The notes under the pieces are model-generated. The model saw only the letters and a program-made list of their open reading frames with translations, searched no databases and was not told the origin of the DNA. A stretch of DNA of 64,000 bases from Populus alba (lineage: Eukaryota > Streptophyta > Magnoliopsida > Malpighiales > Salicaceae), in contig NC_133287.1 in NCBI RefSeq assembly GCF_005239225.2, positions 11,885,493 to 11,949,492 of the forward strand. The letters run 5' to 3'. Shown piece after piece: positions 60,627-62,067 of the stretch (its first letter is position 1; every line of letters starts with the position of its first letter). The position numbers and the translations under genes were made by a program.

Positions 60627-61280
60627 TCACAAATGAAGGCTCAAATCTAATCTAAGCTTTTTACGGCTTTCCTTAATTGACCAATCTAGGCGACTCATGC
60701 AGGGATCAATGACAGGGATGAAAGATTGTAGTTGGTCAATCAATTGTTTAGCAGTAGCAGCAGAGATTATGATTTGTTGTGCTGAAGATGTTAAAAATTC
60801 CTGTTCCACAGCTTGATCAAGGAAAGATAGCAACTTATCATAAAAACCATTAACATTTAACAAACCTATAGGTTTATGGTGAATGTGCAGTTGGGCCCAA
60901 GATGAAATATGAAAGATCTCTTCCACTGTGCCCAGACCACCTAGTAAGACAATGAAGGCATCAGCATGGCTAAACATGGCGTTCAGTTGATCAGACATTG
61001 TTGGGACCTGTAGTTCCTCTCTAATTGTTTTTCCAATGGTGTCCCTATTTGTTAAAGCTGTGGGGACAATCCCCAAAACTTGTCTGCCTCCTAAAAATAC
61101 AGCCATTGAAACACCTCCCATTAACCCAAGGCTGCCTCCCTCATACACTAAATGAATCTTTCTCTCAGCTAGTACTTGACCAAGATGATTTGCTGATTCT
61201 AAAAACTCTTTTTCTTTCCTAGGGCTGGATCCACCAAAAACACAAATATTTCTTATGTGATGACTTGAGGAACCTGCCAT
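60627..61280 (-). CDS. LOG-like phosphoribohydrolase ORF carried by the retrotransposon (217 aa)
   Basis: Full-length, intronless frame of the LOG family, which releases active cytokinin bases from their riboside 5'-monophosphates. Visible: FGGSSP at 15-20, GGSLGLMG at 48-55, the nucleotide-binding GGLGTVEE at 114-121, WAQLHIHHKPIGLLNVNGFYDKLLSFLD downstream in shorter blocks, and a basic tail ending LDLSLHL. Deviations: Glu47 where Gly is usual before GGS, Leu113 where the PGGxGT Pro is usual, and Gln98-Leu99 where many plant LOGs have Arg-Lys. Activity is therefore doubtful. Plant LOG genes have several introns, so this was captured from spliced RNA. It sits after integrase and before the internal polypurine tract, on the element's strand. 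Confidence 0.88.
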   Translation of the reverse strand: MAGSSSHHIRNICVFGGSSPRKEKEFLESANHLGQVLAERKIHLVYEGGSLGLMGGVSMAVFLGGRQVLGIVPTALTNRDTIGKTIREELQVPTMSDQLNAMFSHADAFIVLLGGLGTVEEIFHISSWAQLHIHHKPIGLLNVNGFYDKLLSFLDQAVEQEFLTSSAQQIIISAATAKQLIDQLQSFIPVIDPCMSRLDWSIKESRKKLRLDLSLHL

Positions 61281-61518
61281 TTCTACACACTTCTATATTT
61301 GATGAATGTATGGGATGGGTAGAAATGAACGGAAGGAAGAGAAGAATTTATAGATGAAAAAGTGAAAATGCAATCATACCACCTATATATAGGCCAGCTG
61401 TAGTCTCACACTCTCTCTCTTTATTTATTTATTTTGACAAAGCATGTATGTACAGGTAGTTGTGATTGTGGCTCACATCTTCCCTTGGTTTTACGTCCAA
61501 GAACGGCTTAAACGCCCT

Positions 61519-62067
61519 CTATGGGTCGGGGATAGGCTTCCCATCCAGTTTTCTTAAAAACTGGCAAACATGGTCTTTTTTAGTCAGATTCCCAAGACTA
61601 AGTCGATCATGTTCTTTATGGAATTGTGGCCATAAAGCATGAATTACACGATGCACATCTCCACTAGGATGCATCTCAAGGGTCAACAAAAGATTATCTA
61701 AAGACCCTTTACTCAGGCCATCCTTAATGAATTGTATTTTATCTTCACAGTTTACATATACCATTCCTAAAGAATGACATGTCGCATTATAAGTCCATCT
61801 GGCACATCTGTGACAGACTTTCAGTCGTTTTGCACGACGTTTCTTTGCAAAAGTGCTTTTACCTGTTCCAGGCATGTGTGAAATGAAAGAATTGGAGGAC
61901 TCACCTGATAATCAAACTTTTGCTTCAATTAGCCAGTGAATATCTTCAGGAATTCCATGATTCATTAACAACCTCAATCTTGCACACCTAGCACGGTAAA
62001 TTTTATTAATCACATTTGGAGGCAAAGCGGGAAAATACTTTTTCAATTTTTCAAGAGTGGTGTCCAT
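61519..62067 (-). CDS. Virus-like nucleic-acid-binding protein, two in-frame ORFs split by one TGA
   Basis: Upstream ORF: Met 62067 (or 62097) to TGA at 61912-61914, helical and basic (IYRARCARLRLLMNHGIPED). Downstream ORF: 118 codons, Met 61875 to 61519, same frame. Near its start it has GKSTFAKKRRAKRLK (residues 5-19), then Cys21-X2-Cys24 and Cys33-His34, a basic stretch next to a zinc-finger-like cluster. That order, a leucine-rich N-part then arginine/lysine-rich motif then Cys cluster, is the plan of nucleic-acid-binding proteins of carlaviruses and vitiviruses (Pfam Viral_NABP), some of which suppress RNA silencing. Similarity is by motif and order only. The remaining 70 residues I do not recognise. 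The intervening TGA is shared with the decayed copy, so it is old. Confidence 0.6.

Follow-up and report, generated by a model that had tools for sequence, protein, structure and literature searches.

The locus in white poplar analysed here raises the question whether an Athila-type retrotransposon carries, between its integrase (IN) and its 3' LTR, a virus-like nucleic-acid-binding protein (NABP) together with a LOG-family enzyme, and whether such a pair belongs to a family of elements or to a single disrupted copy. We analysed a window of 64,000 nucleotides (the whole stretch of DNA examined; G000:C4:11885493-11949492 of the 416 Mb Populus alba source assembly), which holds two copies of the pair, in elements A and B (Table 1). 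Element B lies on the minus strand with its 5' end beyond position 64000, and the order along that strand is RNase H, IN, NABP, LOG, polypurine tract, and 3' LTR; the coordinates, the strand, and the gene order from IN to the 3' LTR had been given correctly in the initial annotation. The insertion that separates LOG from the 3' LTR in element B is flanked on both sides by the TSD TATTC. An in-frame TGA at 61912-61914 follows codon 51 of the window NABP, so that its reading frame is open from 61911 to 61519 only, the last 130 of 182 codons, and in the window LOG the catalytic Arg98 is replaced by Gln and Pro113 by Leu, the sole such copy among 51 full copies. Both genes appear dead in the window copy and, because of this damage, the finding rests on the family and not on this copy.

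Table 1. Positions of the parts of elements A and B in the window
Feature	Positions	Strand	Evidence
pol, RNase H part, element B	63414..63998	-	PF17917, E 2.5e-35
pol, integrase part, ORF of 338 aa, element B	62271..63287	-	PF00665 (rve), E 5.1e-18
NABP gene, element B; 182 codons in relatives, interrupted in the window copy	61519..62067	-	Carla_C4, 28.2 bits; 182-aa homologues 92-93% identical
Near-invariant segment, NABP 3' end and ~50 nt past the stop	61468..61587	-	diversity among 49 copies
LOG-family ORF, 217 aa, intronless, element B; Arg98 and Pro113 replaced	60627..61280	-	PF03641, PDB 2a33
Insertion taken as a solo LTR of another family, 1,014 bp, TG...CA	59266..60279		absent from element A; ends and TSD read
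Polypurine tract, element B	58361..58370	-	sequence
3' LTR of element B, TGTGATTAG...GTGTCA	56526..58360	-	sequence comparison; ends read
Primer binding site TGGCGCCGTTGCC, adjoining same-family LTR, element A	34425..34437	-	sequence
NABP of element A, broken (three stops)	28199..28747	-	locus reading
LOG of element A, broken (stops and frameshift)	27308..27960	-	locus reading

The Athila-type layout that had been proposed for the element (Ty3/gypsy, OTA) is supported by its order of parts and by its domains. Gypsy-type gag (PF03732) and rve (PF00665) domains were found, RVT_1 (PF00078) and RT_RNaseH were present in an open pol stretch of L014, a locus with the same layout as element B in which tblastn placed RT before IN, and the protease matches in the profile scan stayed under their cut-offs. 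A primer binding site in element A is one that we take to be of the tRNA-Asp type; tRNA-Asp-like sites are tied to Athila. The RNase H and IN pieces of element B are separated by 126 nt, which leaves no room there for the additional RNase H that distinguishes Tat from Athila, the latter being without it (PMC6317226). Athila ORF-1 (PF03078), which is described in 16% of Athila elements (PMC6317226) and is not a required feature, was matched neither in the ten pieces of the window that were scanned nor in the pol of L014. Extra ORFs between pol and the 3' LTR have long been known in the Athila lineage (Neumann 2019, PMC6317226; Vicient and Casacuberta 2020, PMC7264820), and the poplar family shares with the Athila elements described there the sense ORFs between IN and the 3' LTR and the lack of an additional RNase H between RNase H and IN, but has NABP and LOG as accessory genes in place of an env-like transmembrane protein.

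By its profile matches and motifs, the first accessory gene encodes a predicted basic zinc-cluster protein of 182 aa, of the type that carla- and vitiviruses have as NABP or cysteine-rich protein (CRP). It had initially been taken for a small Cys-cluster protein of that family, and the family stood, with a Carla_C4 match of 28.2 bits (cut-off 20.9) to the window ORF at 61519-61875, whereas the gene proved longer, starting at 62067, and cut by the TGA in the window copy. Viral_NABP, one of the two profiles named for the module at the outset, scored 20.6 bits in the window copy, under its cut-off of 23, but 31.6 bits in the full-length 182-aa homologue P0001 (residues 37-120, 84 residues aligned), which also matches Carla_C4 at 26.4 bits. 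At E < 0.01, Viral_NABP matches 24 and Carla_C4 23 of 26 chosen members. A basic NLS-like stretch stands directly before the Cys cluster of P0001 (KKRRAKRLKVCxxCxxxxCxxxC), and five cysteines (Cys 85, 88, 93, 97, and 168) are kept in 37/37 NABP copies. Protein searches gave 720 homologues at E up to 0.01, the named sources among the 120 listed being Populus alba, P. x canadensis, Xanthoceras, and Parasponia; a second search added Acer and Rhamnella, as protein records apart from genomic context. Searches of phages and of the PDB found no NABP relative, none of 155 pattern matches in IMG/VR was confirmed, and the structure model (pLDDT 60) was too poor for a fold search. Cysteine-rich or nucleic-acid-binding proteins are described for carla-, viti-, allexi-, and mandariviruses, silencing suppression has been reported for the carla-type CRPs, and p12 of the carlavirus CVB is described as a transcription factor that induces hyperplasia (PMC12172455). 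The poplar NABP is like the viral CRPs in matching both profiles and in having its basic stretch just before the Cys cluster; it is unlike them in being encoded by a retrotransposon and in being known here from sequence alone.

LOG enzymes release free cytokinin. The second accessory gene is the full-length intronless LOG-family ORF that had been claimed, and PF03641, the other profile named for the module, matches its 217 aa at 118.9 bits (cut-off 27; E ~2e-34). The closest solved structure is that of Arabidopsis At2g37210 (PDB 2a33, E 1e-55); the structure model (pLDDT 42) was too poor for a fold search. Among the 51 full LOG copies, 46 of which were chosen by LOG score, the catalytic Arg98, the GGxGT core, and Glu121 are present in all except the window copy. 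Residue 99, assigned from alignment reading (M-x-x-R-K in At2g37210 versus M-S-D-R-L in the transposon LOGs), is Leu in 50 copies and Met in one, so that the adenine-site Lys is found in 0/51. In CgLOG, Arg99 and Glu122 are described as catalytic and Met96, Lys100, and Glu121 as lying at the adenine, and alanine at AMP-binding or catalytic residues almost abolished activity, with the exception of one Ser (PMC4979012). Because Leu or Met stands in place of Lys in every transposon LOG, the substrate or the activity may differ. The 1560 protein homologues at E up to 0.001 presumably include ordinary LOGs, and the species-named matches among the 120 listed are all from Populus. A P. trichocarpa record (P0234) under the name LOGL10 has 77% identity with the window LOG and also has its Leu99; annotated LOG gene counts and families in poplar genomes may include transposon copies.

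The P. alba assembly was searched for each gene, and the best 150 of 1248 first-look candidates were scored for LOG and the best 150 of 1721 for NABP. Both lists are spread over 22 contigs, and for 47 of the 150 listed NABP genes the LOG list holds a same-strand match 600-1300 bp downstream, versus 0.03 for shifted positions. We examined 61 distinct loci that were selected for their LOG score. All 61 have NABP, whole or in part, upstream; NABP is full and stop-free in 29 of them (one with an in-frame deletion), LOG is full and stop-free in 48, and both genes are open by the criterion of the script in 25, a count that includes L022 with its in-frame NABP deletion. The profile scores and the genome-wide recurrence of the pair exclude chance. 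It had been allowed from the start that the module might occur only in the two window loci, as a local duplication of one disrupted element, and their distance of 33 kb and identity of about 92% would be in keeping with that; the dispersal of the best-150 lists and the separate branches that copies A and B occupy in the LOG tree refute it, and we regard it as vanishingly improbable. We also drew 15 loci from the NABP list, all outside the LOG list; in five of them the part covered was just the LOG stretch. Four have a fully open LOG and one has a LOG open to codon 207; in the other ten a stop or a frameshift breaks it, or it is truncated or deleted, two of these having no LOG in the 691 bases read. 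LOG is therefore lost more easily than the LOG-ranked list implies, although the pairing is still common.

At 20 loci of 9.5 kb, the family LTR lies downstream of LOG in 19 and integrase is present in nine (in pieces in L018), and two loci are interrupted upstream. Five loci (L009, L011, L013, L015, and L020), designated NA1, are without RT, part of RNase H, and the integrase core and keep gag, damaged or shortened in some (e.g. L011 and L020), and a protease-like stretch; the LOG ORF is open in all five and NABP in four, L009 having one stop. L010 resembles NA1. In three further loci, designated NA2, integrase residue ~36 is joined to NABP residue ~118, with a common stop; NABP is dead in L012 and L027, where LOG is full and stop-free, and these derivatives without NABP nonetheless exist in several copies. 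An in-frame IN-NABP fusion protein was considered for L012, L025, L027, and L013 and rejected, since all four share one stop position, the mark of a dead remnant. The tree of the LOG region, in which many forks are weak, intermixes NA1, NA2, and full-length copies, and its simplest reading seems to be that the 3' module recombines between backbones. The LTRs of the NA1 copy L011 differ at 5 of 1509 aligned sites, so that some of the spread is recent. We conclude that white poplar holds a large and recently active Athila-type family with NABP and LOG in the env position as regular components of its genome.

As dS rises, pairwise dN/dS drops: among the 29 NABP copies it goes from 0.62 to 0.19, and among the 49 LOG copies (window copy included) from 0.78 to 0.23, the LOG bins above the first being non-monotonic (0.34, 0.24, 0.34, and 0.23). 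A fall with divergence is expected of genes that are constrained during replication of the element and free after insertion. The ratio omega*, whose neutral expectation was fitted to the mutation spectrum of each pair, the pairs not being independent, was 0.33-0.43 for NABP, 0.39-0.73 for LOG, and 0.31-0.66 for the integrase control (nine copies, five with one in-frame stop, stop codons skipped). A codon model gave omega values of 0.28 for NABP (36 copies), 0.41 for LOG (50 copies), and 0.26 for IN (the four stop-free copies). LOG score, and not NABP score, decided which 29 NABP copies entered the pairwise analyses, so that choice by NABP score does not bias their value; the codon-model set comprised 37 copies (36 after removal of one duplicate), ten of them added through NABP choice. 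The LOG value is open to the corresponding bias, because 46 of the 51 full copies were picked for their LOG score. For the four LOG copies chosen through NABP, omega* was 0.71, a shallow value obtained without the window copy; the all-pairs value of 0.84 and the deep value of 0.44 include the window copy. Comparisons of distant LOG copies stay at ~0.4, with LOG-ranked copies involved. NABP is under purifying selection of integrase-like strength, and the mutation patterns suggest that the element still needs it. LOG is probably, though not certainly, under selection; it is less constrained than NABP or integrase, and the constraint measured partly reflects how the copies were selected. In the NA1 subset omega* was 0.23-0.30 for LOG (five copies) and 0.59 and 0.24 for NABP (four copies). 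Given the mixed LOG tree and the seeming recombination of the module, there is no way to attribute these values to the time since the deletion, and the proposal of a constraint specific to RT-less derivatives was withdrawn.

Among 49 copies, third-position diversity is 0.0054 in the last 23 NABP codons versus 0.059 in codons 1-159, and noncoding diversity is 0.016 in the near-invariant segment versus 0.050. This stretch of ~120 nt looks like a possible cis-acting signal; Rfam gave no match in 58000-64000. A TATA promoter of LOG's own was dropped as a candidate, as TATATATAGG occurs in 1/49 copies; CTATAAATTC was found in 41/49.

On balance we lean, by no great distance, towards an Athila-type family that carries the virus-like NABP as a nuclear or RNA-binding factor and a host-derived LOG as a second, less required one. 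NABP would derive from a betaflexivirus-like RNA and serve the element, like its viral relatives, in silencing suppression or transcriptional activation, and LOG would derive from a host mRNA and be less strictly required. Most simply, LOG would release active cytokinin (or another base) and push the host cell towards division, and dividing cells would let the element reach the germ line; silencing suppression and cytokinin release would both favour dividing, less silenced cells. A more specific proposal, which we hold to be quite doubtful, makes the pair a cassette for reprogramming the host cell, in which an RNA-virus-derived zinc-finger factor that may suppress silencing, switch on proliferation genes (cf. 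carlavirus p12), or both, and a cytokinin-releasing enzyme would together bring about a dividing, poorly silenced state for transposition, the module being exchanged by recombination among full-length and RT-less derivatives.

LOG might instead be a passenger, a transduced host cDNA that is decaying and is open mainly through the youth of its copies, with NABP alone functional. The omega* of 0.71 in the NABP-chosen copies, the damage to or absence of LOG at ten of the 15 NABP-chosen loci, with four fully open and one open to codon 207, and the existence of at least one very young copy (L011, with five LTR mismatches in 1509 sites) are what such decay would produce. They are set against the ~0.4 of the distant comparisons, in which LOG-ranked copies are involved, the catalytic Arg and Glu kept in 50/51 copies, although LOG score had decided the choice of 46 of the 51, and the full stop-free LOG that L012 and L027 keep despite a dead NABP; we consider a passenger LOG possible but on the whole not likely. 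If LOG is selected, it may still act as something other than a cytokinin enzyme: its substrate might be a different nucleotide, it might sense nucleotides, or it might join host LOG dimers as a dominant negative. The Leu or Met at position 99 in 51/51 copies speaks for this, the matching Lys100 of CgLOG being an adenine-site residue in a protein whose AMP-binding and catalytic alanine mutants were, one Ser excepted, nearly inactive (PMC4979012), but the proteins otherwise retain the PGGxGTxxE motif and the catalytic Arg and Glu, and we judge a non-cytokinin role unlikely.

The viral origin of NABP in our favoured reading has its own competitor, namely that NABP is a basic zinc-cluster protein of host or Gag-nucleocapsid derivation, or that viruses took it from such elements. 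The link to viruses is one of profile similarity, IMG/VR yielded no viral relative, and the Carla_C4 match covers a short stretch, all of which a non-viral source would accommodate; however, Viral_NABP aligns over 84 residues at 31.6 bits in P0001 and matches 24/26 members at E < 0.01, and Gag and NABP are separate genes. We rate a non-viral origin as rather improbable.

Two Athila-like elements with similarity to LOGL4 were reportedly noted by Steinbauerova et al. in 2011. LTR-retrotransposon consensuses with a YgdH (LOG) domain are described in Citrus and P. trichocarpa (PMC9289625, citing Steinbauerova 2011). They are like the P. alba family in having a LOG-family domain within Gypsy elements, and one of the hosts is a poplar, but the account of them in PMC9289625 makes, in the part that concerns these consensuses, no mention of an NABP partner, numbers of intact ORFs, constraint, or the state of the active site. 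Orchid Gypsy elements carry an ORF for an AlkB m6A demethylase that is reported to be functional (PMC9289625); they are alike in that a family keeps an enzyme ORF of a kind also present in betaflexiviruses, and differ in the domain, the plant lineage, and the reported function, the poplar genes being known solely as sequence. For the Tekay ORFs of sunflower, a role in RNA silencing has been proposed from structural likeness to double-stranded-RNA-binding proteins (PMC11728184). The additional ORFs of sunflower Tekay and Athila elements are likewise Gypsy accessory proteins conserved across copies, but no virus CRP or LOG domain is named in the sections of PMC11728184 that describe them, and the Tekay ORF lies upstream of gag-pol. 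In the main texts of the open-licence literature searched, we found neither a Carla/Viral_NABP gene reported from an LTR element nor an NABP-LOG pairing. Judged by that literature, the virus-type NABP and its pairing with LOG appear to be new, while the LOG half had already been published (PMC9289625).

The extra ORFs of plant LTR retrotransposons are mostly obscure in origin and function, and NABP has a recognisable RNA-virus counterpart. With that counterpart and with integrase-like constraint, a concrete function becomes testable (nucleic-acid binding, silencing suppression, or transcriptional activation). LOG links transposons with cytokinin metabolism, and if either protein works, plant retrotransposons would be using virus-like genes for control of the host.

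Other repeats were noted in the window. Upstream of element A, two adjacent LTRs and two gag starts lie at 34443-37907, and these LTRs match the LTR at 24.5-26.2 kb unevenly (84% and 91%), as nesting or recombination would suggest. At 4142-8310, a single pol-like ORF of 660 aa (4853-6835, minus strand) is flanked by 946-bp direct repeats with 98.6% identity; the ORF is seemingly shortened inside, and the whole may be a young Gypsy element with an internal deletion. The window also has minisatellite-like arrays, at 694-2072 and 19918-20639, whose spacings are about 61, 49, and 58 bp.
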